Below are positions 1 through 51,730 of a stretch of 64,000 nt of DNA, piece after piece. Made by a program: the position numbers and the translations under genes. Every line of letters starts with the position of its first letter. The stretch's first letter is position 1. The notes under the pieces are model-generated. The model was given only the letters and a program-made list of their open reading frames with translations, had not been told where the DNA came from and did no database searches. The stretch is from Candidatus Woesearchaeota archaeon. Lineage in GTDB: Archaea; Nanobdellota; Nanobdellia; Woesearchaeales; JABGUJ01. The DNA is taken from the NCBI GenBank assembly GCA_018646625.1, contig JABGUJ010000004.1, forward strand, positions 62,001 to 126,000, written 5' to 3'.

Positions 1-3000
1 AATATTATGAAAATAATACTGATGCTTCTGGCTATTATACAATAAATAACTTACCATTTGGTGGATACAGGTTTGATGTCGAATCAGATGACGAATCAAT
101 TGGCTCTGTATCTAATGATCTTGATGAAATTGATTCTTTAGTTATCTCAGAGAATATTGAACTTAACGCTTCTCTTCCTGCTGGTTTATTTTTTAATATC
201 TTGACTGATAAAGGAAGTTATGCGCTTGATGATACTGCTTATGTTAATATCACTGTTTATAATTACGGAGAATTTGATTTGCACAATTGGACCATTTTTA
301 CAGAAGGTTATGCTGAGAACGACTCTAACGATGAAACATTCTTTGAGAATCTCATTAGTGAGGACGTTACAATCTTACAAGGAGAAAACATCAGTTTCAA
401 CTTTAGTGTTTTCTTGAATGAGACTGCAATCTCTTCTGTAACTGATGCTGAAGTTTACATTTCTCCTGTAGCTCTGAAACAGAACAATAGTCTTGTTTCC
501 ATTTCTTCAGGTCAAGATATGGATGTTGCGGGAATTTTCTGGTATGATAAGCAACTTAACATTACAGAAGAACCTGTCTGTGGTTATTCTGGCGGAGATT
601 GGAATATTACAACTCCAATTAACTGTTCTGATGAAGAGATTTATGTGGACGGAGATATCACCATCGTGGCGGGCGACTTAGCGACGACTAGTTTCAGCGC
701 AGCATCGACTGCCGCATATGACTTAAGAGGTAACTCAACAGATATTGGTGAAAATTCTGAATTAGATCTTTTAGCTAATGAAGCTGGTTACACAGATGAT
801 TGGGATCAATCAGGAAGCGGAATGGATTTTTACATTGCAATGAATGAAACCTCGAACAGAATACAAATATTAGTGAACTTATCCCCTGGCGCTATTTATA
901 TAATTGATCTTGATCAAGACGCGAGCACAGGGTTTGTTATTGAGGATGGAAGAGGATATGACCTTTGGCTGGGAAATATGCCTGATATGGGAGTATATGG
1001 TGTTGGTGTCTCTAACTCTACTCTTGAGGATGAAGGTGATTTTGGCTGGTTCCAAAACGCAGAAGATGGAGATGTAATGAACACTTCTACAAGTTCAGAC
1101 TGGAATTTAAATTACACAGTATACATGAATAAATCCGATGACAACTTTACGATAGAATTAATAATCGACATGTACTCAACAGAAGAGTGGGCTGATAAGA
1201 CGGTATTTATGGCGGTTTTTGGAGAAGGAGATGATTCTGGATATACAACATTTATGAACTCATCACTTGAAGAGGGTGGGCAACTAAGTCTTGAAAACAT
1301 TACGCTTGAGATTGAAGGAAACATCTCTGCTGATGGCACTCTAATCATAAACAACTCCGAAATTGAATTCCAAGTAATAGATAATTCAACCGATTTTGTA
1401 TGTGGATCTGGCTCGGTTGTGCTGATAAATAATTCGTTGATAGGCGCAAATAACTCGGACTTTGCATTTGGATTTAAATCATACTCTCCTTCATTAACAT
1501 TACAAAACACAGAATTCTCTAGTCTTATTCAGGATTATGATTGGGGGAGTGAGGAAACATCCAGTGGTATCCATCTTGAAGAAGGTGATGCACTCATAAC
1601 TAATGTCACACTAACAGATTTTTCGGGTTGGAATTGCTTTTATGTTCAATCTGCTGGTGCGGTGTTGTCGAACTTAAATACTAGCGAGAACAGTTGCTCG
1701 CTTTATTTGAACGGAGGGGGATCATACACCGTAAGAGATAGTCACCTGAGCTCCCTTTCTCTGATGAACGGGCCTAGTAACTGTCTGATCTCTAACAATA
1801 AAATCACTTATTCCCTAAGCGTGAGTTCAAATGGAGAAACGGCTGACAATATCTTTGTGAATAATAATCTTGAGAATGCACGGTTTTTTGACATTAGTAA
1901 CACAACAAACTCAAACTATTTAATCTACAACAACTCTTTTGGGGAAGTTAGCTGGTACTTATCAAACCTTACAATAAATTCTTCATTCGGTAACACACTT
2001 AATTTCTCTATCGGAGAAAATGTATACGTAGAGAATAACACCATTGGACTGAGCGATCATTCAAGATTCTCTAACTTAAACGATTCCGCAACTCTAACAT
2101 TCAGAGGTTTATTTTGGGAGTCTGACACGGCAGAAGTATGCGAATCTGGTGCATCTTGCTTCGATTGTAATTCAACAAACAACTGCACATATAATTATGA
2201 TGCTAGGGTTCTCGTTGTGAATGTAACTCACTTCAGTAACTATACTACAAACGGAACAAATGTAGGACCTCCTAGTTATACTTTATCTGGTTACGTGAAA
2301 TATCTTAACGGTACACCTGTCTATGATATCGATGTTTATCTTGAACACAACTTCACTTATTCTGAATACTATAACACCACAGACGCTTCTGGTTATTATG
2401 AAATCCATAACGTACCTGCGGGAGGATATAACTATGATGTTGAACCTGACAACGAAGAGATGGGATACAGTGGAGTGACCACTGACTTTGGCGACAACGA
2501 GGAGTACTTAGAGATATTGGAAGATATTGAAGTGAACGCATCTTTGTATCCTGACATAATAGTGACCTTAATGACAAATACAGACGTGTATCAGCTCAAT
2601 GCTACGGTTTTCGCCAACGTAACCGTATACAACAATGGAGAGTATGATATCTTAAACTGGATTCCTTTCTCCGAGGCATATATAGAAAACGACACTTACT
2701 GCTGTGGTGAACTTTACGAAAGCGAGGGGGACAACATAAGTTTATTGTCTGGTCAAAACTTGAGCTATACCTTAGACGTATTTTTAAATTCATCAATCAT
2801 TAACCAAATTGAATCACCTGAAGTGTATCTTGAATCCGCCGCAATAACATTGAACAATAGTTTGATTTCCGTCTCAACAGGACAAGACCTGACTGTTGCA
2901 GGGATCTTTGGTGCAGAGATTAAAATAAACATCTCTGAGTTCGGAAGTAACACTTTATCTGGTTATGCGAGATACTTGAACGGAACTCCTATTGATGGAG

Positions 3001-9000: not shown

Positions 9001-12000
9001 GGACCTTTAATACTTCCAGTGGGCAAAACGACATACCTATTGGTGCTTTAGTGGATGTAATTGCTGATGATGGAAATACTAGCAATGTTTCAACAACTGT
9101 TTACGTTAATGTGAGCAGTACTTATTGTGGTGGTGCGTACTCTGGTTCAGGTGATTGGACTATTTTAAACGCAACTACTTGTTCTAATGAAAATATTACT
9201 GTTACCGGGGGCCTGACAATTTCATCTCAAGGAGATGTGCCTACTACTAATTTTAGTACTAATAGCTTATCATCTTACGATGCAAGATCAAATTCTTCGA
9301 CAATTAGTTTGTCCGACATAGATTTAGTTGCAGATGATACTTCATATACTGATGACTGGGATGATACAACCATCTCCGAATTTTACACTCGAATTAATGG
9401 ATCTGAGCACATAATACAAATGTATGTTGATAATAATAATTTAAGCTATGCTTACTTTATTGATGTTGATAGCAGTTCTAATTCAGGGGTGGGTTTAGAT
9501 AAATCTGAAACTCGCGGCTATGACTTATTTATTGGTTACTTCCCTGATTTTAATTTAACTCATGTGGCTGTATTTAATAGATCCATTTCGCCACCTAATC
9601 CTGAATGGCCGTCAGGATGGTTTCAGAACGCAACTAATGGTATGACTGTGACTGCCGATTATGATTCTGGTCTGACTGAGAATTACACAGTTAATTTCAT
9701 AAACGATACTAGTAATTACAAATATGAAGTAATGATTAACATGACTGGAGCATGGACTGATAAACCGGTTGCTCTGTTCTATGGGGGACCTGGTGATTAT
9801 CCTGAATACTTTACCACATTCAAAAACTCTGAGTTACTTGATCCGATGATTGGTGCGTTAACTCTAAACAACGTGACTCTCGAACTTTCTGGTAATCTGG
9901 ACGCTAACGCGAATACTAACTTAACTATTCAGGATTCAACCATAGAATTCCAAATGACTGACAATGAGAGTGCAAATCTTTCTGCTTTTGATTTGAACTG
10001 GTTAATAATTAATCATTCAACAATAAGTTCCAACGGATCGTATTATTACACTCTGGAATTTGAGGAAATAGTAAATCAGAAAATATTAAACAGCAACATG
10101 TCATCGATGTGTGTTTCATCTGATGGTCCGCAGACTTGTCAACTAGCATCGAGCAGCAATACTGTAATATATAATAACACTTTTGATGATTGTGGCGTCG
10201 GTTCGTTATACCTGGGTGGCGGATCATCAAATGTAAACATAAGTTATAACAATTTTTTATCAACTTGTAGTCTTTATCTAACCTCATCAGGAGCCGATTT
10301 TACACTTGAAGATTCTTACTTCGTTGGCAACACATTCAATAATGGTGCAACTGCGCGGGGTTGTATCAATTGTATTATTAGGGATAACAACATTACTTCT
10401 AATGGTTTTTCTCTTTCATCAACAGGTAGCGAATCTGGTGAACCTTCCGTTAATTGTACGCTGGAGAACAACATAATAAGTGGGTCACTGAGTGATTATA
10501 ATTCAACTGGATCTAATACGTTAATATACAACAATGAATATGGACAAATTGTTTGGTCAAATAAATCAAATCTTTCAATAGGGTACATAGACGGAATCCT
10601 AGGCTTAATACCTGGCACTACAATCTTTTTAGAAAACAACTTGTTAGGTATACAGGATAGGTCTCAATTTACTCAGATAAACACAACTGCGCAATTATCT
10701 TTCTATGGATTAACCTGGGAAGGGACTGCAGAAGTGTGTGAATCTGGTGCATCTTGCTTTACTTGTAATTCTGGAAACAATTGTACTTACAATTCCGGAA
10801 CTGGTGTACTAACAGTAAACGTAACTCACTTCAGTAATTATTCTACTAACGGAACTGAGCCAACATACAACATGACTGGATGGGTTTTAGCACCAAATGG
10901 TTCTGGAAGATCTGGTGTTTCGGCAAGAATAATACACTCCGTTACATCCGATGCCGATAACACAACAACCAATGGTTCTGGTTTCTTTGAATTCCAAAAC
11001 ATTAGTTCAGGATTATATGAAGTGCGCATAAACAAAGCTTTACCGGGACTTGAAAACTTAACTACGCTTGTGCCTGGCGATATAGGTGGTCAAGACTATT
11101 TTGTGAATCTAACTGCCGGCAACCAAGAAGTAAACGCAACGGTGTATGACATTTTTGTTGCAATGCAAACAAACTCTTCAACATATAATGAAGATTCAAA
11201 TGCTACTGTGAATGTTTCAGTAACTAATTTAGGAGATGTGAATTTAACCAATTGGATTGTTAGCGTATATGCTGAAGGAACTGAAGATGTTGATGATGAT
11301 GAAACCACCGTTAATATCTCAGCAGGAGAAACTTATAATCATACTTTTACTTTATTCATGAACGGTACTGCAATTGGAGAAGATACTACTCTTGATTTCT
11401 ACGCGGGCACATTCAAGCAAGATGAATTCTACAACACATCCACTGAGACTTTAACTGGGGAGAATTATATAGAAGATTATGTTGAGGTCAACATAACTCA
11501 AGCAATACCAACCGCATCAGGAAACTTGAGTTCCTTCTTTGATGATTTTGCAAGCGGAATAAACACAAGCTTCTTTGGACAAAGTGAATCAAACATAACT
11601 ATCGGTGAGGTGTCTGGACAAATATATATGAATGGTTCAGTACAGGATACTGGTGTTGATGAAATTGGAATTTTTTACACACATCAAAACATGACTGGTG
11701 AATCATTCAATGTAAGTGTTATCATAAATTTGACCAATACAACTAGCACAGCAGAAGGCGATTATTTAATTGACTCAGGTATTTTTTTGTATAATGAAGC
11801 GGATTTCTCATCTAGCATGGGTTGTGTGGCCGCGTACGCTGCATTCAGTCCAGGAAATGCGATGTTAGGGTTGCAAAATGGAAGCATAGAGGGAATGCCT
11901 TATACTACGTCTATCCCAGATTCGCAAGGGTTATTGACTCTAACGTACAACGCAAGCAGTGGAATTTTTAACTGTTCCTTAGACGGAATATCTCTTGCTG

Positions 12001-15000
12001 AAACTTCAGACTACTTTGCCGATACAAACTACTCTCTTGCACTCTACAGTAGACTTGGTTCGGTCGGAGCAGTTGATCCGAACGCATCATTAAACGTAAC
12101 ATTTGATGATCTAAACTACACTATTACGCCTTCGGAAGATCCAGGTGCTTCAAGTTGCGGAAACGTATCTTCTAATATAACTTTAACCGAGAATTTATTT
12201 TCAAATGCGACTTGCTTAACTGTGGCTGCAGATGATATTACAATAGATTGTGCTGGATATACAATCAATTACTCTAGAGATATGATGCAACTTGGTAAGG
12301 GAGTTGACATTAGCAATTATAACAACATTACTGTAAAGAATTGCATATTTGAAACTGCTTTTGATGATATGGATGTGAATTATGCTATATATTTAAGCAA
12401 CTCCACCGATAGTGAAATAATCAACAACACCGTAACAGGTGCACTTCCCGAAACGAGTTATTATTTCATATTCTTAACTGCGGGATCAAATGATAATTTA
12501 ATAGCAAATAATAGTGTGTCTGGTTCACTAATGGCAGGAAATGGTATATATGTACAACAAAGCTCTGAGAATAACACGATACAAAATAATGTTGTGACTC
12601 TTTCTGATTCAAGGGGAATAAGCATTTTGAATTCAAACTACAACAACATACTTTACAACAATCTATCAACAGATCCTGACACGATGGATTACGATGCTAT
12701 ATATTTGTACAATTCAAATGAATCTACAATTTCATTCAACAATTTATATGCTGATGCTAATGCAATGTTTTTAGAAGGTTCGGCTTTACGTTTGAGTGAC
12801 AGTCATAACAATGTTATTGGTGAAAACAACTTATCTGCATCTGATGATGAGGCCTATTCTTTATATCTTGACCAGGGATCATCCGGCAATTTATTTTCAA
12901 ATAATTTCGTAAGTTCTACGGATCGAGTAATATATGACTTGGCTGGTGCTGAGAATACTCTTCTTTACAACAACTCTTTCGGACAAATAAATTGGACATC
13001 AACAAACCTATCAACAAACATAACATTACAACTACACAATACAATATTCCTAGAAGATAATAACTTAGGATTGGTAGATGACTCACAAGCCTTATACTTG
13101 AATGGCTCCGCAGTTATTTCATTACACGGTTTAGGATATGACTCACAACCTTGGTTACTGAAGAACGGCGTAAGATGCGATAATACTAGCTCATGTAATA
13201 TTTCTGATTGGGCTGGCAACACATTAATTGCAAACGTCTCTAGTTTTAGTAATTATACAACAACAGAAGATCCAAGCGCTTCGGGTTGCGGAAACATATC
13301 TTCTGATATGACTTTAACTGAGAATCTATTTTCGAATGCAACTTGTTTAACCGTTGCAGCGGATGATATCACAATAGATTGTGCAGGATATATCATCAAT
13401 TACTCTAGAGATGATATGCAACTTGGTAAGGGGGTCGACATTAGCAATTATAACAACATTACTGTGCGGAATTGTATTTTTGAATCTAATGAAATGGATA
13501 TGGATGTGAATTATGCTGTATATCTGAGCAACTCCAATGACAGTCAAATAATCAACAACACAGTAATAGGTTCACTCCCTATGATGATGGGTTATTATTT
13601 TGTGTTTTTAACTGCTGGATCGAGTGATAATTTGATCGCCAACAATAGTGTGTCTGGTTCAGCGATGGAAGGGAAGGGAATATACGTGCAACAGGGATCT
13701 GAGAATAATACAATACAAAATAATGTCATAACTCTTTCTGATTCACAAGGATTAAGTATCTTGAATTCGAATAACAATAACCTATTTTACAACAACATAT
13801 CAACATCTGCCGGAGCGTCGGCCTATGATGCTATATATCTGTACAATTCAAACGAATCTATAATTTCATTCAATAATTTATATGCAGACGGTATGGCAAT
13901 GATGATGCCAGGTGCTGCTTTATATTTAGTAAATTCTCATAATAATATTATTGATGAAAACAATTTATCCGCATCTGACGAAGAGGTCTATTCTTTATAT
14001 TTTACACAGGGATCATCCGGCAATTTATTTTCAAATAATTTTGTAAGTTCTACGGATCGAATAATCTATGACTTGGCTGATGCTAGTAATACTCTCTTTT
14101 ACAACAACTCATTTGGTCAAATAAACTGGACCTCAACAAACCTAACAACAAACCTAACATTACAACTACACAATACAATATTCCTAGAAGATAATAACTT
14201 AGGATTGGTAGATGACTCACAAGCCTTATACTTGAATGGCTCTGCAGTTATTTCATTACACGGTTTAAGCTACCCCACACAACCGCAGCTACTTAAGAAC
14301 GGAGTACAATGCGATGATTTGGACATTTGTAACATATCTTCTTGGGATGGCTCAACACTAATCGCAAACGTCTCAAGCTTTAGTAATTATACAACAAGCG
14401 AAGCACCTGAAGTCTGTGTTAACTTATCAGACGCATCTACATATCAGAGTAAAGTCGTAAACACAAGCGATGGTTATTACATCAATGATAGTCTAACTCT
14501 TTGTCAGGATACTTATACTACTAACATAACTATGATTCGGATTAATAACTCGGGCATAACTATTGATTGCAATGGTGCAACACTACAAGGGGATAGCAGC
14601 GGCTCAAGCGACTATGGATTTTATGAATCAAACATTGATGATTATGTTCTTAGAAACTGTATCACCCGTAACTTTTCTTATGGATTTATCCTATATGGGG
14701 ATAACATCGTACTAGACAACATTTCAGCATATGATGCTGGTGTTTATGGTCTTCTTTTGGGCGGAGAGAATACAACTTTAACTAACTCTCGATCTCAAGA
14801 TAGTGGTACCGATGGTTTGCGGATTTCTAGCTCTGTGGGTGGTGTATTAGTTAACAATACTTTAATTAATAGTTCTCGTTACGATTTTGTGACTAGTGAG
14901 TGTCCTACATTGGTATTTGAAAACAATACTGGTTCTGGTAATCGTCCGATAAATTATACCAACAGCCAAGTTACTTGGAGAGATTTTGAATCCTCTTTGA

Positions 15001-22121: not shown

Positions 22122-22123
22122 AA

Positions 22124-22130
22124 GAGGTGA
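22124..22130 (+). promoter_or_regulatory. Shine-Dalgarno deciding the start of gene 2
   Basis: The sequence GAGGTGA lies 6 nt before an ATT codon at 22137 and 21 nt before the TTG at 22152. Gene 3 has the same GAGGTGA with exactly 6 nt before its GTG start, which supports initiation at ATT 22137. Confidence 0.6.
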
Positions 22131-22136
22131 AGTAGT

Positions 22137-28028: not shown

Positions 28029-28030
28029 TT

Positions 28031-28042
28031 CTTTTTTTCTTT
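28031..28042 (+). terminator. T-rich terminator after gene 2
   Basis: A T-run interrupted by two C residues follows the gene 2 stop codon by 2 nt. Archaeal RNA polymerase terminates at such T-tracts without needing a hairpin. Confidence 0.5.
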
Positions 28043-28053
28043 ATATAAGAAAG

Positions 28054-28063
28054 CTTTATAAGC
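28054..28063 (+). promoter_or_regulatory. Candidate TATA box for gene 3
   Basis: CTTTATAAG-like TATA element between the gene 2 terminator and gene 3. A start site about 26 nt downstream would give a 5' leader of roughly 145 nt before the GTG at 28230. A second, weaker A/T element (28201-28210) lies closer to the start and could give a short leader. Confidence 0.45.
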
Positions 28064-28116
28064 TGTAGCTCTCTTAAATTACTATAATTAAAGGGGTGGC
28101 CTTCTGTGAAGACTAT

Positions 28117-28190
28117 TCCACAAAAGAGGTAGATTGATTGTACACTAATTCAAGTGGAGTATCTTCTCTACCAAGAGGGGTATTTTTATT
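28117..28190 (+). promoter_or_regulatory. Structured 5' leader of gene 3, possible pseudoknot/attenuator
   Basis: TCCAC (28117-28121) can pair with GTGGA (28154-28158), and GGTAGA (28128-28133) with TCTACC (28167-28172); the order of the arms would make an H-type pseudoknot. The TACC at 28169-28172 can alternatively pair with GGTA at 28179-28182 just before a T-run (28182-28187), a terminator-like alternative. All of this is pairing by eye; function is speculative. Confidence 0.25.
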
Positions 28191-28216
28191 AGATTCTTCT
28201 AGATTTATCTTTTTTC

Positions 28217-28223
28217 GAGGTGA
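28217..28223 (+). promoter_or_regulatory. Shine-Dalgarno of gene 3
   Basis: GAGGTGA, 6 nt upstream of the GTG at 28230; an in-frame TGA at 28224 excludes an earlier start. Confidence 0.7.
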
Positions 28224-28229
28224 TGATTT

Positions 28230-31200
28230 GTGAACACCTCTAGACTGTTTCTAGCGATCTTTGTAGTCTACTTTCTTCTAATTCAACCTTTGGCTGCAAC
28301 TTCGCAAATTAATCCCTCATACTCTTTTAATTTGCCTGTAGATGATACTACGTTAGATGATTGTCTTACTAATGATGACTGCGATGAAAGTTATCACTGT
28401 TCTAATGAAAGTCTTTGTGCAGAATGTAGTCTTTGGGAGGATGATGACATCTGTTGTAATGGTGAACGAGGCGGTGATTGTGGATTGGAAGAAGAAACAA
28501 ATTGCCAAGATGGAACTGATAATGACGATGATTACTTTGTTGACTGTGAAGATGCTGATTGTATATTGAATGAGGAATGTCGTTGTAGTGCTAGAGATGA
28601 TTGTTGGGATAATACTTACTGCTTTGACGGTTTATGTATTCCTTGTGATAAGAATGAAGATGATTGGGTTTGTTGCCAAGGGGAAGATCTAAAGAGCGCA
28701 GATTGCCAATCCGAAGATAATGTTGAGAGAATCTGTGATGATTTAAGAGATAATGATTTTGACGGCAACAAAGACTGCGAAGATTCTGATTGCAAAGATA
28801 ATTGGCAATGCTTTTCATATAGCACAAACGAAATTTATACAATATCCTCTTCAGAGCCTGCCAGTAGTTTTTTTGATGACTTTAATTTGGGAATAAATTC
28901 TTCTTTTTACATAATCTCGAATGGAACTGATCTAACTATTAATTCTTATAACGGAATGGTGTTGGTAAACGGTAGCTTTGATCACGAGCTTGAATTATAT
29001 CCTTATGTTGATATTAAAACAATAAGCAACATCTCTGACGGAGATTTTCTTGCTACAGTTGATATTAACATAACTGACACAGGTGGTTCATTAGTTAGTG
29101 CGGAATTATATGGAGGTTTTGTATTGTCAAACACTTCAGGTCAATATGTCACATGTGAAATAGATTTAAACACCACTCACTATCGTCTACTTATATACAA
29201 CGATTCTTATGGTGAGGCTGCAGATAAAGCTTTGTTAACAAACGGCACCGGCTTGCTCAGTATGGGATATAACAGTGAAACAAACAACATTACTTGCGAG
29301 TTTGGAGGTGAGTCTATATCTGCATACTATCCATATATTGCAAATGAAGATCACGGTCTAGTTATAACTGGAGGGTTATCGGCAATTGGTACACCTGATA
29401 ACATTGGTGGAGATGTAAACATAACTTTTGATAATCTTAATTACACTCTTATTCCACTAGAATGTGGTGCGAATCTAGCCAGTTCAACAACTCTAGATTC
29501 TGATCTTTTAGGGTGTGGTAGTTACGCAATAAATATTTCATCAGATAACGTTACCTTGGATTGTAACGGCTACACAATACAGGGAGATGGTTCCTACGGA
29601 ATATATGTTGATGCAAATAACTTCACACTACAAAATTGTAATATATCCTTTAACGGAACGAGCAGCAACTATGCTATATATTATACATACGACAACAAGA
29701 GCAACAGTAACTTATTCAACAACACAATTTACGCGGGAAATAATACTGCGATATGGGTGCATAACAGGCTTTTCAATCTTACAATTACGGATAATCACAT
29801 CGAAGCTGCGGACTTCAACGTGCTTATGATTAGCAGCACATCAAGCGGTGTTGTACTGACAAATAATACAATTCTAGGACAAGGTTGGATAGTGAGCTTT
29901 GGTGCTTCTAATGGTGTAGTTACCAACAACGTGATGAATGCCTCCAATGGATGGTATGCCTTTTCGTTAATTGGGGACAATAATACTGTTGCCAACAATA
30001 ACATCTCAGCTACTGGTCAAAAAACATTCTATTTAGAAGGGAGCAACAATACTGTTTACGATAACAGAGTGCAAGCTAACGGGCCAGCACTATTCTCTCA
30101 ATCCGCCGACCCAGATCAAAATACTTTCCTTAACAACAGATTTGCTACATCACTAAATATAGGGTACTTAGTTTCATTGTATAGTTTCTCTCATTCTAAT
30201 GTTCTAGTTTACAACAATTCATTTGGAGAGATACGATGGTCTGGAGAAGGTCTCTCTTTAGATACAAGTGATGCAGCCACGCTTGACCACGGAGAAGGAT
30301 TAAATATTTCTCAAAACTTTATTAGCTTTGATTCTGATACATTCACTGAAGTATATGATCAAATAGCTACAATATCTTTTTACAACTTAAGCTACAATGA
30401 AACACCAGTTTTACTTAAAGATGGGGCAAGGTGTGATCATACGGACTCTTGCAACATAAGCTATAACAATGTTACAGGGATACTTTACGCCAACGTAAGC
30501 GAGTTCAGCAACTACACGACAACAGCAGATGTGCCTTGTGGAATTATAAACTCTAACTTCAATTTGAGCTATGATCTCACCTCAAGTGAAACTTGTTTCA
30601 CAATAAACTCATCCAACGTAGTGCTAGACTGCGCAGGATACACAATCACTGGTAACGGCTCAGGCTACGGGGTTAACATCACTAATGTAGATAACGTTAC
30701 CATTGAAAATTGTATTGTTAACAACTTTAGTCGTGGAATTAGCAAAGATGGTTATGATCTTAATACCTATTACACTTTTCAGAACAACACAATAAACACA
30801 TATGGTGAGTCTGGATATGGGCTTTATTTAATAGTTTCACAGAATTCTACAATCTTCAATAACACAATAACTACTAGTGGATATCAAGGAAGTGCACTGT
30901 ATTTCAATCCTGGAATTAATTACAGTAACGTAAGTCAGAACACATTAACAACTTACGCTAATTGGAGTTACGGAATATTCCCTGCACTCTCTTACAACAA
31001 CGTCATAGATAGCAACACCATAGTTACCTATGGGAACACCTCTGATGGAATGGATGCTCCTAGCTCATATGGTAACACAATTAGCAACAACAACATAACA
31101 ATCTACGGAGAAGCAGGAGGTATAGATATAGTATACAATTCTTCCCACAACACCATTAGCAACAACGTTATAACACATTCTGGAGATGATAGTGCTGCTC

Positions 31201-34200
31201 TGGAATTGTGTGAATACGCGACTAACAACACGCTCTCGAACAACATAGTTCAAATAACAGGCACCGATAGCGCGGGAATAGATATTTGTGATTATGCTTA
31301 CAACAATACAATAATAAACGGAATATTAAATGCAACACTCTTTTCAGATGTAATATTAGAAAATGGTGGGAACAACAACGTGTTCCTCAACGTATCATTC
31401 AACAAGAGCGATGTTGGTTTTGAAGGTACTTCAGGATCAATAATTGTAAGGTGGTATGTACAGGTGAATGTAACCGACGAACTAAGTTCTCCCATCTCAT
31501 CTGTAAACGTCTCAGGATACAATGTCACTAGTCAGGTTGAAGATTCCGCTTTAACGGATGCAAACGGGCAAGCCACTTTAACTCTCACAGAATTCACTCA
31601 AAACTCCTCCCACACAACATACGCGACGCCACATAGCGTGATCGCTTCACTTCAAGGATATGCTGACGATTCGTCTTCAGTAAATCTCACTCAAACAGAG
31701 TCAACTACTGTTCAACTAACTTTAACCAACGACTGTGCGGTCTTGAACGGAGATTACACTTTAGTAAGAGACATAACAACTTCAGGAACCTGCTTCCACA
31801 TAAACGCTTCTGACATAACTATTGATGGTGCTGGCTATTCGCTAACAGGAGACGGCACTGGCTATGGGATAAACAACTCTGGACAGTTTGACAATCTAAT
31901 AATCAGAAACTTTGGAAACATTTCAAACTTCAAGTTTCCGATTTACACATATTTCATGACTGACTCAGTCATTTATAACAATACCATTGACATACCAGCC
32001 ATAGGTGGAGGTTCAGGAGTATACTTAAAATATTCAGACAACAACAATATCTCTCTGAACAATATAACAACCCAAAGTTCTAGCACAGGGATAGAAGGTC
32101 CTGGAGCAGATAACAACGACATCTTTTATAATACAATCTCAACAACTGGGGGCACAGGTTATGGAATTCAATTCTACACAAGCTCTAGCTCAAATACATT
32201 ATTTGGCAATACAATCTCATCATCGGGAGTGGGCACGGACGCGGTAAGAATATCTGGAGGAAGTAGCTATAACATCTCAAACAACACTCTATTCTCTCTT
32301 AACTCTACAAGCATGGGACTCTACTTAAGCGCTAGCCATTCATTTGTCATCTCAAACACCATTAACACCACAGGCAACTCTGCGGATGGAATCAATTTAG
32401 TCGGAGTAACAAATATGACTCTTACCTCAAATACAATCTACACAACAGGTGAAGGCAGTGGAGGGTATGGTATAGATTTAGCAACAGTATCTGATTCTCA
32501 CATCGCCGAAAACAATATTACAACAACAGGGGACAACTTTGGTGCAATAACCTTCTCTAATTCAAATAGCAACGTCGTTGAATTAAATACTGCCACCACA
32601 TACGGATCTGAAAGCGACTCCTTATTATTAGTAAACGCAGATCATAACATTGTTTCAGAAAATATTATTACGACATACGGTTATGATGCAAATGGCGTCT
32701 ATATATCATCAGGATCTACAAATTGCACTTTGATTTCGAATACTATAAACACCCAAAGTCAATATGGGCGAGGCATTCAGATGGCTTCAACTCCAGATTA
32801 TCCTTCTATGACGTTTTTCAACAACAACATCACTACTGAAGGATATCTCGCAGAAGGAATGTGGCTATATTATGCTCATTACGCTAATGTGACATCAAAC
32901 AGAATAACAACTAATGGGAATTCTAGTATTGTGTTAAGATATAGTTTATCTAATCACACCTCAAGCCAAAATAACATATTAATATCCAATGGAAACTCAA
33001 GTCATTGCTTGACGCATTCAACCTCTTTTAATTCTACTGCGAGTAACAACATAATAAACACAACAGGAAATTCTAGTCACGGAACTTGGAGTTCAAACAT
33101 AGAGAGCACTAACATATCGTACAACAACATAACGACAGAATCGGCACTAGCCAGAGGCATAATGCACGATAACTCTAACGACAACTGGTTTACAAACAAC
33201 ATAATAGTTACGAATGGAGATGATGCAATAGGTATTACTAATTCAAATTGTGAACGAGACACGATATCTTACAATACAGTTACGACTCAAGGAAACGACG
33301 CCGATGGTATTTATTTTGTGGGATCTCCAAACACAACTGCCAACAACAATAATATATCTATTACTGGAGAATCGGGTAACGCTATGTTGATTGTAACTTC
33401 ACAAAGAGCAAACCTTTCCAATAATACTGCGAGTGTTGAAAGAGACTCTGTGTTTGATGTGTACTTGATAACTTCAAACAATTCTCAAGTTATTGGGAAT
33501 TACTTTATATCGGATGGTAATAATAGTCACCCAATTGTACTTGAGCGAACGCATCACAGTCTTATTAGCGATAATGAAATAATAACGTATAACCTTTCTT
33601 CAGGTATTTACTTGGCGAATCTTTCATCTCTCAACAACATAACATCTAATAATATTACCACGTACGGAGATCAAGGACACGGGATATATAGCAATTATAA
33701 CGCTTCTCAGAATAGAATAGAAAATAATTATGTTGATGTAAGTGGAAACGCCACAACAGGCATTACATTGCTTGGTTTTTCTAATAATTATACAATCGCC
33801 AACAACACTTTAAGCTATTCGGGTAATGAAGTATTTCAAGGCATTTACATTAACGCATCAGATAATAATATTATTTTGTCTAATCTCGCGGATTATCAAC
33901 CCGGGACAGGCAAATGGGCATTTTATATTTATGATGTCGAAAATACATTAGTGAATGGACTAGTTATGCCGGAAAGTGTGAACATAACAACCAACTATCT
34001 AAAAAGGGTGGCTGTAGACATTGAGTCCTCTCCTGAGTCGCATTCAAGTGAGCTACGAAACCTTTCCACCTTCTTACAAATTCTCGGTGTAACAGACGAA
34101 GCATACATAGATTTCAATTTGAGTTATGATGGGGTTGATATTACAAGCATTGATGAATCCTCACTTAGAATTTATTGGTATAATGGTACTGATTGGGCGG

Positions 34201-37200
34201 TCTTACCAAATTCAAGCATTGATGTGGAGAATAATGTTATTTCATCAGGGAATATTTCTTTGTCTTCTTTAGAAGTTTTTGCCCCTTTAGGTCAATCTAG
34301 CTCAATGTGTCAAACACTCAACTCTGATCTCCTACTAGATATTAATCTCGATACAAATGGGAGTTGTTTTACAATAAATTCCTCGAATATAGTCATCAAC
34401 GGAAATGGTTACACGATCACAGGTGATGGATCGGGATATGGTATAAACAACTCGGCAGGCTTCGATAATATCACAATAATAAACTTTACTGGAATCAATA
34501 ATTTCTCAAATGGCATATACGCAGAAGGCATGCAAAATTCTACAATATATAACAATACCATACAAAGCGCAAATGGTAACAATGCGCATGCGATTCGTTT
34601 AGGGGACTCATCTAGTTTCAATAATATATCTTCAAACACAATTAGTTTAAACGGAAACACTGCACATGGAGTCTATTTAACTGGTTCTTCTGATTCTGCT
34701 TATATATCTAGTAATACGATAACTGATACATCCGTAAATAACGAAGCAATCTATATCGTGGCTTCAGATAATGCAATTATAGAACATAATACGATAACTC
34801 TATCGGGTGGTAGGGCTATTGAGTTGAATGGGGCCGTAACTAACAATACAATAACTAACAACAACATTGAAGTATCTTCTGGAGGATATGGTATTATACT
34901 TTTATCAGGTCCTTACAATAACATGGTTTCGTATAACAATGTTACTGGTAGTTTAGTATCTCACTCGATATATCTGGTTAACGGAGATGATAATACCATC
35001 TATCATAACATTGTTGATGTGGCCTCAACCGGAGAACCTGTTATGTATCTTAATGTAGGATCTGAGAATAACAACATATCAACGAATATAATAACAACAT
35101 CTGATGTGGGCTCTCATGGAATACGAGTTGAGAACTCTGACAATAACCTATTTGAGTACAATAATGTAACTGCAACACAAACAAGTGGTTATGGTTTTAG
35201 ACTGAATAATGCAGACAATAACACAATATTTGCAAATAATATCAACGGAACAAGTACTTCAACAAACGGGATAGATATTTCTAACAGTACCAACAACAAA
35301 TTATATTCTAACTTCATCAATACTTTGTATTATGGTGCGGAAGGGATATATTTGGACGATGGGACAAATAATACTAACATTTCTATGAATCAAATAGTAA
35401 CTGAAGGAGAAGATGCGTATGGGATTTACATATATCGTGATTCTTCAAACAATTATTTCAACAGTAATAATATTACTGTATTGACATCTATTGGGGTTAT
35501 GGTGCGAGTAGATTCGGATGATAATGAATTCCATTCTGATACTGTCAACGTAGTTAACAACGCAAGTTTCTACATATATCAGAACGCCGCGGGAACGACA
35601 CTCGACGATGTGATAATAAATAATGGCCCGAACATCTCTAGTAGTTCAATGGATAACATATCGATCGGCGGGGTGGTTGCGATTCCGCCAGATGTTGATA
35701 ATCTAAGCAACATGTCAGACTATCTAACTATAAATAGTCAAGGAGATGGCGCGCATATTGATCTCAACTTAAGTTATACAACAGTCGATGTTACTAATGT
35801 ATCTGAGAGCAGCATACGCTTATATGAGTATAACGGATCAAACTGGACTTTGGTATCTACTTCTGGAGTTGATACATTAAACAATGTTGTTTATTCAGGA
35901 GAAATAATTAATTTTTCCATCTTTGCTCCTTTTGGAACATCTGGTGCATTTAATCCGACGATTAATAACATAGAATGTAGTGTTGATAATGGCACCAACT
36001 GGTCAACATGTTCCTCTGTTACGTATGGGGGGGAAATAACCAATCTATCTATTAATTGCACAGATCCTAACGGCGATGTTTCCTATGCGAGTTTTAGAGT
36101 TTATAACGAATATGATGATAACAATGTACTGAACCAAACAAACTCTACGCAGTCCTTAGGAGATCGTTGGATTATTAACACAAACTTCTCATTTCAAGAT
36201 TCAGGAAATATGTTGATTGAGACAATATGCACAGACTTACAAAACAACACAGATGACTATAACACAACTTGGTTTGTAGATTGGGGCACTTTACAACCAT
36301 ATTACGTGAATTCTACTGGTGATCTAGTGTATTCGCTAGATGGCTTCAATGTTACTCGATCCGAATTTTTCAATATGACAACAGGCGTACTCTGTGTTGG
36401 AGGAGAATGTCCTAATGTAACTGCTGCCCTAGATCCAATGCCCGTCGTAAAGAAGATTAAGGCAAAAGTTGCAGGTCGCAGTTTGAGAAAAGCAGAGAAT
36501 TTACCAAAACGATTCAGAGAGAACAAAAAAGAGCGTAAACCAGGCCAAATAAAAATAATACACTTCAAGTCTATTATTCAAGATGAATGGAAAGAAGAAC
36601 TAACTAGTCTTGGTGTAGTTCTCTATAATTATCGTCCTGAAAACTCCTTTGTTGCAAGAATAACAGACATAGGTTCTGTTACATCTTTACCTTATGTTGA
36701 ATCCATTGGTGATTTACCCAAGGAACGTAAGATTGTTGGTGCGGAAAGAAAGAAAGCCAGAAGGCAAAGTTACAAAGCATCTGTTAACAAACGAACCCGA
36801 TTTTCTTTGGGGATATTTGATGAAGGGGATAGAGATGATGTGATTACTAATCTGAATAATAATTCAATAGAGATCTTAACAGTTACTGATGATAAGATCA
36901 CATTCATTGCAAGCACACAAGAAGTAGACTCAATTGTATCTTTACCTGAAGTTGAATATGTTGAAGACGTGATTCAATATACCATAAAGAATGATTTAGC
37001 TACTGACACTATGGAAATTGACCAGGTAGGTTGGTTAGCTTATGGTTTGTCCGGAAATAACATGACTGTCGCAGTTGCTGATTCTGGATTAGATACGGGT
37101 GTAGATAACTTCTCGGTTGATGATGATATTCACAGGGATTTTGATAATCGGGCGACTATTTATAATTGGAATTGCACAGTTTACGGTGAGAGTTGTACTG

Positions 37201-40199
37201 ATCCTGATGATAAGAACGGGCATGGAACTCATGTGACTGGTTCGGTTGCGGGAGATGGTAACAGATCGACTAACCAATATAGAGGGTCTGCATATGAGTC
37301 AAACATAATCTTTCAAGCCATAGGTGATGACGATGGATCGAGAAGTGTATATCCTCCTCCTACTTTGGCTGAATTATTCTCGCAAGCATACAACGCTGGT
37401 GCGAGAATACATACAAATAGTTGGGGCGGCGGCGGTAATGGCTATTACTACAGCGATTGTACTGCGGTTGATGCGTTTTTGTATGATTATCCTGAATTAT
37501 TAATCCTTTTTGCAGCAGGCAATGAAGGATCTGGAACTAATACTATTGACGCACCTGGAACTTCAAAAAATACGTTGACTGTTGGTGCCTCATACAATTC
37601 AAGATCGGGAAATATAGATACTATTGCTAGTTTTAGTTCAAGAGGACAAACAGATGATGGTAGAGTTAAACCAGACGTGGTCGCACCTGGGACTGCAATA
37701 TATTCAACTAAATCTAGTCAAATTGATTCCGCAACACCGGCATGTAATACTGGAGGACTGGGGGGATCATACTATTCATCATGTCAAGGAACTAGTATGG
37801 CGACACCTTTAGTTGCAGGTATGGCTACTCTAACTAGAGAATATTTTCAAGAATGGCAAGACGAAACAAATGTTTCGGGAGTTTTAGTTAAGGCGGCAAT
37901 AATCAGTGGTGCAGATGAAACAAGTTACGGCTTTCCAAGCACTGCGACAGGGTGGGGCAGAGTGAATCTAACAAGAACCATTAATCCGCCACCTCCTGCA
38001 GGTTTTGACTACATAGATAACAAAACTGGTTTAACAACAGGAAATACTGCATCTTACACTTTTGATGTAACTGACACTTCGGTTCCTGTAAAAGTAACAT
38101 TAGTCTGGATGGACTATGAAGCATCCGCTGGCGCCGATCCTACACTAATCAATGATTTAAATCTGTTAGTACAAACACCAAACGCCAGTTTATACAGAGG
38201 AAATGATTTCGATGCAACGCCTGATGATGAAAATGATTCCATAAACAACGTTGAGATTGTAAGAATTAGCGATCCAGAAACAGGAACGTTCACAGTTAAC
38301 ATAACAGGGTACAACATTCCTCAAGGACCTCAACCTTATGCATTAATTTTCTATGGCGGAATAAGGCTGGCCGCATCAGATAAATTTGATGACGTATTAT
38401 CGACTGATTTAGAATCTCTAAACAATACAGCGATACAAAACGTAACCAATTTAACAATTGGAATTGCAAACAAAGGTCAAATAAATTATGGTTTGCAAGG
38501 AGTTAATGTCTCTGGGGCCGATTTGAATAAATACATAACAATAGATGATAACTTAATTAGTTTAGATGCGGACAACCTACCACTGCTAAATACGTCTGCA
38601 AGGCTAAGTATTTTTGATCTATCTTATTCTTGGACGCCGCTAATATACAAAGACGGCTCAGTATGTTCAGATTGTAGTGACATAACTTACACTAATGGGA
38701 ACTTATCATTTAATGTGACTGGATTCAGCAACTATACGACAAGTGTTAGTGCACAACTTGCTATTAATGACGACACTGATGATGGAATTACTGCTTATCC
38801 TAATCAAGAAATATATTTCTATGCGAACTACACCAATATAACTGACAACTCTCCAATAAATAACTCGGTTGGACAATGTACTATTACTTTTGAGAGTTCT
38901 CCTACTCACACCATGACATATAATGCTGCAACAGGAGAATATGAATATAGTAGAACCTTTTCTTCAAATACTACATATACTTACATTATCTCATGTAACG
39001 GTACTGATTACGAACCACTAAGTTTGTCAGATGACATAATTGTTCAAAACAGCAGCGAGTCTAAAGGATTAATATCAACAACGGAAGGCGCAACTCCATT
39101 CTGGACAAATGCATCAAGTAATCCTGCCAACTCTTCAGAATATTCTTGTTTATTGAATATGCGGGGAGGAGAAACTTGTAATCAAACCTGGTATGTGACG
39201 CCCACGGGAAATGTAGGCACAACCTGGAACTTCTTTTCAATATACGAATCAACAGTTAATTCAAGTTATGTGATTTCTAATACTTCGAACACAGTTAATG
39301 TTACAATTACTTTGGGATCATCTGTTGAAGCACCTACTGCGTTATTCATCACAAACATAAACGATTCGGCATTGTACTTGAATTGGACAAATGTTGTAGA
39401 TGCAGATAGTTACACGGTTTATTACAGTACAAATGTAACACAAATACTAAACCTGAACATTAGCAATTTAGGTGCTGCTGTAACAAACGTAACTGGAATA
39501 CCGATACTTAACTGGACTGACACAAGTTCCGGATCTGTAACAGAAAGATATTATAGAGTTGCCGCAATTAGGTCGGGTGATGGTAATTTAACAACTGATA
39601 CGATTGGTAAGTACGACATAGAAGTTGTTGAGGCGACAGGAATACCTGGAAGCGGCGTAGATCTTAACTTGATATCCGTTCCTTTAATACCTAACAATTA
39701 TAGCATAAATGCGATACTTAATCAATCATCCGACAATGACTTGATTTACAGATACAATACGGACACCCAGAATTACCAAAGCACGCAATTTTTTGAAGGA
39801 TTTGGTTGGTTTGGTGATTTTGACGAATTTGAACCTGGGGTGGGTTATGCTTTCAAACCAGTTGCAGCTTCTTATAATTTCACAGTACTAGGAATTGTGC
39901 CTTCGAGCAATCTAACTGTGGCTATCAAAAACGCAACAGGGGTGCCGGGCAGCGGAATAGATTTAAATTTAATCGGCTGGCACAGCCCTCAAACCGTGTG
40001 CAATATAAGTGCCATAATTGATAACGCATCTAATAGTGATATAATTTATCGCTACAATACGCAAAGCCAAAACTACCAAAGCACGCAATTCTTCGACGGG
40101 TTTGGTTGGTTTGGTGATTTTGACTGTTTTGAGCCCGGAGTTGCATATGAATTTAAACCAGTAACGAGAAGTTATAATCTCAGCTACGGCCTTTCCTAG
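28230..40199 (+). CDS. Giant secreted beta-helix protein with embedded subtilisin-like protease
   Basis: A 3,989-aa protein with GTG start fixed by a Shine-Dalgarno and an upstream stop. Order: signal peptide (1-24), Cys-rich acidic head (about 40-200), LamG-like segment (about 210-410), long NosD-like right-handed beta-helix arrays (about 420-2700), a subtilase pro-domain-like region (about 2770-2910), S8 peptidase domain (about 2940-3230) with Asp2951 (VADSG), His2998 (GHGTHV), oxyanion Asn3098 (AAGNEG) and Ser3189 (GTSMATP), the beta-barrel domain usual after such subtilases (about 3240-3380), further beta domains, Fn3 and the terminal module shared with gene 1. All catalytic residues are intact. 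In other subtilases the pro-domain is cut off autocatalytically; here that would separate about 2,800 residues of stalk from the protease (inference). Its stop codon directly abuts the stop of the convergent gene at 40200. N-glycosylation sequons are very frequent. Confidence 0.9.
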   Translation: MNTSRLFLAIFVVYFLLIQPLAATSQINPSYSFNLPVDDTTLDDCLTNDDCDESYHCSNESLCAECSLWEDDDICCNGERGGDCGLEEETNCQDGTDNDDDYFVDCEDADCILNEECRCSARDDCWDNTYCFDGLCIPCDKNEDDWVCCQGEDLKSADCQSEDNVERICDDLRDNDFDGNKDCEDSDCKDNWQCFSYSTNEIYTISSSEPASSFFDDFNLGINSSFYIISNGTDLTINSYNGMVLVNGSFDHELELYPYVDIKTISNISDGDFLATVDINITDTGGSLVSAELYGGFVLSNTSGQYVTCEIDLNTTHYRLLIYNDSYGEAADKALLTNGTGLLSMGYNSETNNITCEFGGESISAYYPYIANEDHGLVITGGLSAIGTPDNIGGDVNITFDNLNYTLIPLECGANLASSTTLDSDLLGCGSYAINISSDNVTLDCNGYTIQGDGSYGIYVDANNFTLQNCNISFNGTSSNYAIYYTYDNKSNSNLFNNTIYAGNNTAIWVHNRLFNLTITDNHIEAADFNVLMISSTSSGVVLTNNTILGQGWIVSFGASNGVVTNNVMNASNGWYAFSLIGDNNTVANNNISATGQKTFYLEGSNNTVYDNRVQANGPALFSQSADPDQNTFLNNRFATSLNIGYLVSLYSFSHSNVLVYNNSFGEIRWSGEGLSLDTSDAATLDHGEGLNISQNFISFDSDTFTEVYDQIATISFYNLSYNETPVLLKDGARCDHTDSCNISYNNVTGILYANVSEFSNYTTTADVPCGIINSNFNLSYDLTSSETCFTINSSNVVLDCAGYTITGNGSGYGVNITNVDNVTIENCIVNNFSRGISKDGYDLNTYYTFQNNTINTYGESGYGLYLIVSQNSTIFNNTITTSGYQGSALYFNPGINYSNVSQNTLTTYANWSYGIFPALSYNNVIDSNTIVTYGNTSDGMDAPSSYGNTISNNNITIYGEAGGIDIVYNSSHNTISNNVITHSGDDSAALELCEYATNNTLSNNIVQITGTDSAGIDICDYAYNNTIINGILNATLFSDVILENGGNNNVFLNVSFNKSDVGFEGTSGSIIVRWYVQVNVTDELSSPISSVNVSGYNVTSQVEDSALTDANGQATLTLTEFTQNSSHTTYATPHSVIASLQGYADDSSSVNLTQTESTTVQLTLTNDCAVLNGDYTLVRDITTSGTCFHINASDITIDGAGYSLTGDGTGYGINNSGQFDNLIIRNFGNISNFKFPIYTYFMTDSVIYNNTIDIPAIGGGSGVYLKYSDNNNISLNNITTQSSSTGIEGPGADNNDIFYNTISTTGGTGYGIQFYTSSSSNTLFGNTISSSGVGTDAVRISGGSSYNISNNTLFSLNSTSMGLYLSASHSFVISNTINTTGNSADGINLVGVTNMTLTSNTIYTTGEGSGGYGIDLATVSDSHIAENNITTTGDNFGAITFSNSNSNVVELNTATTYGSESDSLLLVNADHNIVSENIITTYGYDANGVYISSGSTNCTLISNTINTQSQYGRGIQMASTPDYPSMTFFNNNITTEGYLAEGMWLYYAHYANVTSNRITTNGNSSIVLRYSLSNHTSSQNNILISNGNSSHCLTHSTSFNSTASNNIINTTGNSSHGTWSSNIESTNISYNNITTESALARGIMHDNSNDNWFTNNIIVTNGDDAIGITNSNCERDTISYNTVTTQGNDADGIYFVGSPNTTANNNNISITGESGNAMLIVTSQRANLSNNTASVERDSVFDVYLITSNNSQVIGNYFISDGNNSHPIVLERTHHSLISDNEIITYNLSSGIYLANLSSLNNITSNNITTYGDQGHGIYSNYNASQNRIENNYVDVSGNATTGITLLGFSNNYTIANNTLSYSGNEVFQGIYINASDNNIILSNLADYQPGTGKWAFYIYDVENTLVNGLVMPESVNITTNYLKRVAVDIESSPESHSSELRNLSTFLQILGVTDEAYIDFNLSYDGVDITSIDESSLRIYWYNGTDWAVLPNSSIDVENNVISSGNISLSSLEVFAPLGQSSSMCQTLNSDLLLDINLDTNGSCFTINSSNIVINGNGYTITGDGSGYGINNSAGFDNITIINFTGINNFSNGIYAEGMQNSTIYNNTIQSANGNNAHAIRLGDSSSFNNISSNTISLNGNTAHGVYLTGSSDSAYISSNTITDTSVNNEAIYIVASDNAIIEHNTITLSGGRAIELNGAVTNNTITNNNIEVSSGGYGIILLSGPYNNMVSYNNVTGSLVSHSIYLVNGDDNTIYHNIVDVASTGEPVMYLNVGSENNNISTNIITTSDVGSHGIRVENSDNNLFEYNNVTATQTSGYGFRLNNADNNTIFANNINGTSTSTNGIDISNSTNNKLYSNFINTLYYGAEGIYLDDGTNNTNISMNQIVTEGEDAYGIYIYRDSSNNYFNSNNITVLTSIGVMVRVDSDDNEFHSDTVNVVNNASFYIYQNAAGTTLDDVIINNGPNISSSSMDNISIGGVVAIPPDVDNLSNMSDYLTINSQGDGAHIDLNLSYTTVDVTNVSESSIRLYEYNGSNWTLVSTSGVDTLNNVVYSGEIINFSIFAPFGTSGAFNPTINNIECSVDNGTNWSTCSSVTYGGEITNLSINCTDPNGDVSYASFRVYNEYDDNNVLNQTNSTQSLGDRWIINTNFSFQDSGNMLIETICTDLQNNTDDYNTTWFVDWGTLQPYYVNSTGDLVYSLDGFNVTRSEFFNMTTGVLCVGGECPNVTAALDPMPVVKKIKAKVAGRSLRKAENLPKRFRENKKERKPGQIKIIHFKSIIQDEWKEELTSLGVVLYNYRPENSFVARITDIGSVTSLPYVESIGDLPKERKIVGAERKKARRQSYKASVNKRTRFSLGIFDEGDRDDVITNLNNNSIEILTVTDDKITFIASTQEVDSIVSLPEVEYVEDVIQYTIKNDLATDTMEIDQVGWLAYGLSGNNMTVAVADSGLDTGVDNFSVDDDIHRDFDNRATIYNWNCTVYGESCTDPDDKNGHGTHVTGSVAGDGNRSTNQYRGSAYESNIIFQAIGDDDGSRSVYPPPTLAELFSQAYNAGARIHTNSWGGGGNGYYYSDCTAVDAFLYDYPELLILFAAGNEGSGTNTIDAPGTSKNTLTVGASYNSRSGNIDTIASFSSRGQTDDGRVKPDVVAPGTAIYSTKSSQIDSATPACNTGGLGGSYYSSCQGTSMATPLVAGMATLTREYFQEWQDETNVSGVLVKAAIISGADETSYGFPSTATGWGRVNLTRTINPPPPAGFDYIDNKTGLTTGNTASYTFDVTDTSVPVKVTLVWMDYEASAGADPTLINDLNLLVQTPNASLYRGNDFDATPDDENDSINNVEIVRISDPETGTFTVNITGYNIPQGPQPYALIFYGGIRLAASDKFDDVLSTDLESLNNTAIQNVTNLTIGIANKGQINYGLQGVNVSGADLNKYITIDDNLISLDADNLPLLNTSARLSIFDLSYSWTPLIYKDGSVCSDCSDITYTNGNLSFNVTGFSNYTTSVSAQLAINDDTDDGITAYPNQEIYFYANYTNITDNSPINNSVGQCTITFESSPTHTMTYNAATGEYEYSRTFSSNTTYTYIISCNGTDYEPLSLSDDIIVQNSSESKGLISTTEGATPFWTNASSNPANSSEYSCLLNMRGGETCNQTWYVTPTGNVGTTWNFFSIYESTVNSSYVISNTSNTVNVTITLGSSVEAPTALFITNINDSALYLNWTNVVDADSYTVYYSTNVTQILNLNISNLGAAVTNVTGIPILNWTDTSSGSVTERYYRVAAIRSGDGNLTTDTIGKYDIEVVEATGIPGSGVDLNLISVPLIPNNYSINAILNQSSDNDLIYRYNTDTQNYQSTQFFEGFGWFGDFDEFEPGVGYAFKPVAASYNFTVLGIVPSSNLTVAIKNATGVPGSGIDLNLIGWHSPQTVCNISAIIDNASNSDIIYRYNTQSQNYQSTQFFDGFGWFGDFDCFEPGVAYEFKPVTRSYNLSYGLS
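36550..37930 (+). other. Pro-domain plus S8 peptidase domain inside gene 3
   Basis: The pro-domain-like part (about 36550-36980) has two small alpha/beta repeats ending near PLPYVE and SLPEVEYVE motifs, the pattern of I9-like subtilase inhibitors. The catalytic part carries the Asp codon at 37080, His at 37221, Asn at 37521 and Ser at 37794, each in its canonical motif. Confidence 0.9.
39330..40196 (+). repeat. Shared C-terminal module, copy in gene 3
   Basis: 289 codons that align without gaps by eye to 21252-22118 of gene 1, including more than 40 identical bases around 39350-39390. The two GFGWFGDFD repeats are preserved. High DNA identity across 18 kb suggests recent duplication or ongoing gene conversion. 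Confidence 0.9.
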
Positions 40200-50971: not shown

Positions 50972-51706
50972 TTACAAGTCTTTTCCTTCTGGTTTAATAA
51001 CTTTAGAACTTCTCCAAAGCCAGTCGAAATACGCATCATAAGTCGCAACTATATTTTTATTCTCCATTACAATTGCAAAATAAGGTTCTTCCCAAATAAA
51101 TTGAGTTACTCGGTCTCCAAACAACAATAAACTAGTAGGTAGTTGTATATCTTCTGGAACCTTCCTCCACTCTTCATATTTCTGCGGAGTTATATCTTCC
51201 TCACCTTGACATATCAAAACTTTACCAGGGATTTTATTCTTTTCATACACGCTCAAGTAATATTCCATCATGTGCGGGAAAAGTGTTTCGAACTCTCTTG
51301 CCGCACCGACGACCTTGTACGGAGTTTTAGACTCAAACAAGTTTTTAATCAAAGAACGCAATCCTTCTTTACCTTTGTACACTTCAATTTTAGTTTCTTC
51401 TTTAGCAAGTTTTTGCAAACCTAACAGCTGCGGCATTAATTGATTTAATTCTCTTTTTCTTTCATCAACATCTTCCATTAATTTGTTTGGAGATGCCGCA
51501 TTAAAGTATCGAACATTTTTCTTTGTAAAAAAACTCACTAGCCCTTTGTCAATCAACTTCTCAATAATACTATAACACAGAGTTCGTTCTATTCTCGTCT
51601 CTTTTGAAATCTGTGTGGCTGTTATAGCTCCCAATTTAAGCAAAGCCAGGTATATCTTAATCTCTTTTCCTTCCAGACCTAATTTTTCTAAAACATCTGT
51701 ATCCAT
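50972..51706 (-). CDS. TrmB-like transcriptional regulator
   Basis: A 244-aa protein with an N-terminal TrmB-type winged helix (LEKLGLEGKEIKIYLALLKLG, then ERTLCYSIIEKL; residues 5-70), a short coiled coil (about 75-105) and a C-terminal PLD-like fold region (about 110-240, VYKGKEGLRSLIKNL and later segments). TrmB proteins usually bind sugars and control transport genes. It is divergent from a solute-binding lipoprotein gene, with a palindrome between them. Confidence 0.85.
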   Translation of the reverse strand: MDTDVLEKLGLEGKEIKIYLALLKLGAITATQISKETRIERTLCYSIIEKLIDKGLVSFFTKKNVRYFNAASPNKLMEDVDERKRELNQLMPQLLGLQKLAKEETKIEVYKGKEGLRSLIKNLFESKTPYKVVGAAREFETLFPHMMEYYLSVYEKNKIPGKVLICQGEEDITPQKYEEWRKVPEDIQLPTSLLLFGDRVTQFIWEEPYFAIVMENKNIVATYDAYFDWLWRSSKVIKPEGKDL

Positions 51707-51730
51707 GATATTATTAATACACGGGCCATT

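Follow-up and report, generated by a model that had tools for sequence, protein, structure and literature searches.

It has long been asked how DPANN archaea make contact with other cells, hold them and feed on them, and giant surface proteins are one of the prime candidates for these roles. In Nanohaloarchaeota, the SPEARE or giant membrane-anchored proteins measure 5,998-9,409 aa (PMC6642349, PMC10266531). The SPEARE description mentions a serine protease (PMC6642349), and in a reanalysis the protease is absent and a VirB4-like ATPase present (PMC10266531). Huge archaeal proteins with Laminin_G_3 or CarboxypepD_reg/Big architectures have also been described (PMC11573180), and in the bacterium Apilactobacillus kunkeei the consecutive genes Giant1-5 encode extracellular proteins of 3,000-8,000 aa with beta-solenoids, in a 1.5-Mb genome and with recombination and module exchange (PMC12863079). 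From these reports, giant surface proteins of small symbiont genomes are already a known kind, and the locus described here is set apart by its beta-helix bulk, an intact zymogen and a C-terminal module (the C-module). It reads as a dense spot of a shuffled, widespread surface repertoire, an elaborate member rather than a one-off machine.

The locus lies in a 1.57-Mb genome (96% complete, 4 contigs) whose relatives within its order, where named, are Candidatus Woesearchaeota, in keeping with the DPANN archaeon proposed in an earlier note on this DNA. The window, the whole stretch of 64,000 nucleotides analysed, is C3:62001-126000, and its + strand carries the frames 3..22121 (7,372 codons, 5' end open), 22152..28028 and 28230..40199. 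The three consecutive giant surface genes of the earlier note are present as described, and the locus is bigger than it had stated. The upstream contig, where it had proposed to look for the start of gene 1, has a GTG at C3:57215 that lies 4,786 bases ahead of the window and comes with both a ribosome-binding site and a signal peptide. Gene 1 therefore encodes 8,968 aa, and the locus extends over 45 kb. The other two products are ~1,960 aa (gene 2) and 3,989 aa (gene 3), and the three genes together take up 44.8 kb, or 2.8% of the genome. Their main features, in window positions, are:

1..22121 (full gene C3:57215-84121), + strand: gene 1, with the C-terminal 7,372 codons of its 8,968-aa secreted protein in the window
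9909..20564 (C3:71909-82564), + strand: gene 1 beta-helix (NosD/PF13229) region, many blocks
21252..22118, + strand: gene 1 C-terminal module (Fn3 and two repeats), ending ~1 residue before the stop
22137..28028, + strand: gene 2, 1,963 aa from ATT 22137 or 1,958 aa from TTG 22152
27699..27755, + strand: gene 2 transmembrane segment, AILWVFAAIVLLVVAGVLI
28040..28047, + strand: TATA-like element TTTATATA upstream of gene 3, a consensus match only
28230..40199, + strand: gene 3, 3,989 aa, with a GTG start and a strong ribosome-binding site
28230..28763, + strand: gene 3 N-module, a signal peptide and a Cys-rich acidic double-disulfide domain
29574..35627, + strand: gene 3 beta-helix (NosD/PF13229) region
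39330..40196, + strand: gene 3 C-terminal module (Fn3 domain and two repeats), reaching the last residue before the stop

A divergent pair of genes, for a TrmB-type regulator and an ABC-type binding protein, flanks the locus on both sides (L006:9611-11492, judged by eye, and window 50972-52967), as if duplicated.

The earlier note had allowed that the long frames might be an assembly artefact. The frames are real, and an artefact, a chimera and chance frames are all ruled out: there are zero Ns across genes 1-3, only three pairs of exact repeats of at least 30 bp within the 45 kb of the locus (the longest 88 bp), a third-position GC that is low as in the adjacent housekeeping genes, and a codon-fraction correlation with neighbouring housekeeping genes of 0.90-0.92. 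The sequon excess argues the same way. Genes 1, 2 and 3 have 462, 113 and 193 sequons against 193, 45 and 103 in composition shuffles, an excess of ~2-2.5x (z = 22, 12.5 and 11, respectively), and the products are probably heavily N-glycosylated. Pfam matches in the locus are to beta-helix (NosD/Beta_helix), Ig-like/DUF11 and carboxypeptidase-regulatory-like domains, with repeated right-handed beta-helix rungs found by profile (PF13229, PF05048) in genes 1 and 3. With their signal peptides, these are the secreted, sequon-dense, beta-helix and Ig-like surface proteins that had first been recognized by reading the translations.

Gene 1 encodes, in order, a signal peptide, a Cys-rich acidic N-module, carboxypeptidase-regulatory/Ig-like repeats, beta-helix blocks capped by 'FSNYTT' domains, Ig, Fn3 and the C-module. 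No transmembrane anchor was found in this protein besides the signal peptide. A TATA-like element, TTTAAATA, is located upstream of the gene at L006:12983 and is a consensus match only.

Gene 2 encodes a signal peptide, DUF11 and Ig/tandem-95 repeats, and close to its end a single transmembrane segment with a basic tail behind it. Since ATT 22137 lies 6 nt after GAGGTGA and gives the signal peptide a basic start, translation seemingly begins there rather than at TTG 22152, and the ATT would be an unusual initiation codon or an error in the sequence. This start follows the gene 1 stop by 15 nt, and genes 1 and 2 are likely cotranscribed. TATA-like boxes before genes 1 and 3, and none before gene 2, suggest two putative transcription units, one of genes 1 and 2 and one of gene 3. 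Apart from signal peptides, AILWVFAAIVLLVVAGVLI is the sole transmembrane segment of the three proteins, so the membrane anchor is confined to gene 2 as had been noticed before; the basic tail of ~90 aa that follows it is presumably cytoplasmic.

Gene 3 begins with its N-module and continues with beta-helix blocks, an internal PGF-pre-PGF-like stretch, an Ig-like stretch and a propeptide region, which are followed by a KP-43-type subtilase, an 'FSNYTT' domain, Ig, Fn3 and the C-module. Gene 1 has its paralogue in gene 3 at both ends: the C-terminal module that the two had been said to share shows 74% identity over 332 aa, and the N-termini, whose likeness the earlier note could not have seen, show 40% over 143 aa. 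The N-module of gene 3 also has 66% identity to that of a 6,397-aa giant on contig C4. As an order-wide marker the N-module was rejected, since its full-length matches are three only, all in its own genome; outside this genome, an order-wide search matched only its short acidic-disulfide repeat. The only NCBIfam match of the PGF kind is an internal PGF-pre-PGF domain in gene 3 (aa 2508-2566), and there is none within the C-module. Anchoring of the PGF-CTERM/archaeosortase type was rejected, as the combination of a C-terminal PGF motif, a transmembrane helix and a basic tail is absent here.

The active subtilase reported to be embedded in gene 3 is real, to judge from the sequence, with its catalytic residues in place (Pfam, 2.7e-43; KP-43 with gene 3 alone, 3.8e-95). 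Its parts are:

36534..36989 (aa 2769-2920), + strand: Lys/Arg-rich tandem propeptide region, common to the free-standing subtilases
36990..38348 (aa 2921-3373), + strand: KP-43/SubHal-type subtilase and beta-sandwich domain
37080, 37221, 37521 and 37794, + strand: catalytic residues D2951, H2998, N3098 and S3189, from the KP-43 alignment

The Asp/His/Ser triad and the oxyanion Asn are intact and in context, and the alignment spans residues 1-431 of the 434 in 1WMD, including the beta-sandwich domain after the catalytic core. Residues 2691-3989 of gene 3 align end to end, at 35-37% identity, with free-standing proteins of ~1,200 aa (family f38), and a profile of these proteins matches KP-43 (1WMD, 1.1e-131) and SubHal (5FAX) through the beta-sandwich domain. 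The free-standing subtilases carry propeptides and a C-terminal module like those of gene 3, and in several genomes their genes adjoin pyrimidine-biosynthesis-like and dephospho-CoA kinase-like genes (judged from translations).

The 150-200 residues before the subtilase contain 16-18 Lys/Arg per 100 against 1-6 around them, and so stand out as an island in a protein that is otherwise poor in these residues. The Pfam match of the propeptide is marginal (CspB prodomain in two of seven sequences, E = 0.002), and a structure model of propeptide and protease (7 sequences), used for secondary structure only because of its low confidence (pLDDT 47), has two strand/helix domains resembling I9-type propeptides. 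Since residue 1 of mature KP-43 aligns with N2921, the catalytic residues are intact and the Lys/Arg-rich stretch lies just before, self-cleavage is predicted at K2920/N2921, which would free a protease of 1,069 aa. A gene 5 kb downstream of gene 3 (window 45215-46066) encodes a predicted lipoprotein whose lipobox is ISGC; with its Kazal-type serine protease inhibitor domain, it could shield the cell from its own subtilase.

The C-module, modelled with AlphaFold2 (289 aa, pLDDT 93.4), consists of a single Fn3-like domain plus a pair of beta-rich repeats with a short helix. Pfam and NCBIfam recognize only the Fn3 part, weakly, and place the two repeats in no family; a fold search of the PDB and viral models returned only Fn3 chains or generic tail/Fn3 proteins, and with TM-scores <=0.31 on the query these leave the repeats without a fold relative. 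Among 288 genomes of the order, 66 have the C-module by a profile that combines genes 1 and 3 with four relatives; a wider profile finds it in 78 of the 371 genomes of a phylum sample, across many families and in some cases in the same class outside the order. Matches were selected by similarity, not position. In a first set of loci, every complete case with an alignment that reaches the module end has the C-module 0-34 residues from the stop; in L089 and L095, where the alignment stopped early, the length left over agrees with what the module still lacks. In a second set, taken separately, the distance to the stop is 0-17 residues in 21 of 21. The complete carriers examined range from 277 aa to several thousand aa, and each of the nine short ones whose N-terminus is closed bears a hydrophobic signal or anchor.

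Since it is terminal in every complete carrier examined and occurs on exported proteins of many sizes, the C-module would most simply be a sorting or docking domain, a role that other C-terminal domains are known to have. Argued from its position only, it most likely docks its carriers non-covalently to the cell surface, another surface protein or a target polymer. In Bacteroidota, the C-terminal domain of the T9SS sorts its carriers to a surface receptor or export machine. It is possible, and put forward only tentatively, that the C-module is an undescribed sorting or retention domain, class-wide in DPANN, which in the manner of the T9SS domain would deliver fibres and proteases to one specific receptor or export machine.

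These parts can be assembled into one explanation, which as a whole is held with moderate confidence. At this repertoire locus, genes 1 and 3 would encode paralogous, exported beta-helical fibres that are heavily N-glycosylated and have both a Cys-rich N-module and the C-terminal module in common, and gene 2, probably cotranscribed with gene 1, an Ig-like stalk anchored in the membrane. The gene 3 fibre is fused upstream of a complete secreted zymogen of a KP-43-type subtilase. Once folded outside the cell, the protease would cut itself at K2920/N2921 to give a 2,920-aa beta-helical part and the 1,069-aa protease, which would retain its C-terminal module, and this module would sort or dock its carriers as proposed above. 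The set would most likely act as adhesins and provide localized proteolysis where partner cells or particles are touched, and host attachment or digestion, as suggested in the earlier note, is plausible. The locus offers two testable parts, a zymogen with a predicted cut site in a giant fibre and a compact C-module with a confident fold.

It is somewhat unlikely that the role is nutrient acquisition with no host target, in which the beta-helices would bind carbohydrate and a scavenging subtilase would digest extracellular polymers such as glycoproteins and detritus. The closest solved relatives of the subtilase, KP-43 and SubHal, are bacterial enzymes of the kind secreted for bulk proteolysis, a genome of 1.57 Mb is large for DPANN, and the joining of a subtilase to a type I phosphodiesterase domain in giants of relatives would fit digestion. 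However, no polysaccharide-lyase or glycosidase family is matched in the three proteins, and their mass is mostly non-enzymatic repeats. The subtilase-phosphodiesterase giants occur in three other families and have an N-terminal beta-helix or F5/8C, a KP-43-type subtilase and then the phosphodiesterase:

L097:1-8348 (G184:C8): subtilase-phosphodiesterase giant
L098:7661-18776 (G041:C12): subtilase-phosphodiesterase giant
L099:5957-17984 (G075:C31): subtilase-phosphodiesterase giant

Both of those read to their end have Ig domains after the phosphodiesterase. In all three a SurA_N-like gene lies directly upstream, perhaps a dedicated chaperone for these giants.

The reading of the locus as part of a shuffled repertoire draws on the other loci of the same genome, where at least five further surface genes of giant or very large size are found, among them:

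C4:8050-27243 (L008:8050 to L052:7243): giant of 6,397 aa with LamG and Fibrinogen_C, the N-module, a C-terminal membrane anchor and a Lys-rich tail
L051:1952-14278 (C1:~491952-504278): giant of >4,108 aa with 24 DUF285 repeats and beta-helix
Contig C2: large surface genes of 3,746 aa and, twice, ~1,900 aa

Genes 1-3 and the other giant or large surface genes read come to ~6.7% of the genome. The giant on C1 has 1,000 aa in common with gene 1 at 45%; it reaches the end of its contig, and the assembly breaks inside the gene. Laminin_G_3 is present in the C4 and C2 giants. Frames of at least 3,000 aa that match the locus were found in at least 36 other genomes of the order, and order-wide searches turned up scattered homologues. 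At 10,932 aa, the length given for one frame (L054, G082:C12) would exceed that of the 9,409-aa protein described as the largest in cultivated archaea, but a run of N lies in the stretch read. The N-module, the C-module and the stretch common to gene 1 and the C1 giant each recur within the genome, and modules are therefore exchanged among several loci. Woesearchaeota giants are thus built by shuffling a few N-terminal, beta-helix, Ig and C-terminal modules, and such giants belong to a repertoire that is common across the order; this bears on any claim of a special apparatus for one locus.

The earlier note had taken the three genes for one multi-protein surface apparatus. The adjacency, the 15-nt gap between genes 1 and 2, the membrane anchor in gene 2 only and the sharing of both ends by genes 1 and 3 hold, but a single three-protein apparatus is weakly supported. 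One that is self-contained is made less probable by the further giants of the genome, by the shuffling of modules, by the frequency of giants in the order and by the protease standing alone in relatives. In its strict form, with one stoichiometric apparatus whose arms, genes 1 and 3, dock via the shared C-module to gene 2 as their anchor, the proposal is unlikely: C-modules tail free-standing proteases with no evident gene-2-like neighbour in most such loci read, the N-module is also carried by the C4 giant with its own membrane anchor, and gene 3 has its own TATA-like element.

That the proteins make up part of the S-layer or sheath of the cell itself, and that the protease serves as a maturation enzyme, is quite improbable. 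Sequon density, beta-rich repeats and acidic composition would suit such a coat, but the architectures are fast-changing mosaics across families, with several dissimilar giants in a single genome, and do not resemble a uniform lattice. An injection or secretion giant like the SPEARE of Nanohaloarchaeota can hardly be credited, and SPEARE membership was rejected, since beside similar sizes, adhesion domains, a DPANN host and a serine protease in the SPEARE description (PMC6642349) stand a SPEARE reanalysed as without protease and with a VirB4-like ATPase (PMC10266531), no Laminin_G match in genes 1-3 (it is present in other giants of the genome), no Pfam match to a cytoplasmic restriction-type or VirB4/TraG ATPase (gene 2 has only its basic tail) and the lack of a C-terminal membrane segment in genes 1 and 3.

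The locus nevertheless resembles SPEARE in its DPANN origin, giant size, mostly extracellular Ig-like and adhesion domains and a share of a few percent of the genome; it differs in that its bulk is beta-helix, its subtilase is intact, genes 1 and 3 are without a membrane anchor, and LamG and a VirB4/TraG-type ATPase are lacking. It is like the huge archaeal proteins (PMC11573180) in the CarboxypepD_reg repeats of gene 1, and the C4 and C2 giants of the genome are like them in Laminin_G_3, whereas genes 1 and 3 are rich in beta-helix and carry the new C-terminal module. Giant1-5 of A. kunkeei (PMC12863079) are also consecutive genes for giant extracellular proteins with beta-solenoids and module exchange in a small genome, but they are bacterial and have the beta-solenoid at their N-terminal ends, and the likeness is noted without a claim of relation. 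The subtilase of gene 3 agrees with KP-43 and SubHal (1WMD, 5FAX) in full-length alignment, beta-sandwich, catalytic residues and mature N-terminus, and with its free-standing Woesearchaeota relatives (for example JABHXF010000048, JABJHR010000003, JAGVYW010000042) also in the tandem propeptides and C-terminal module. What distinguishes gene 3 from all of these is that its zymogen is fused behind ~2,700 residues of exported beta-helix protein.
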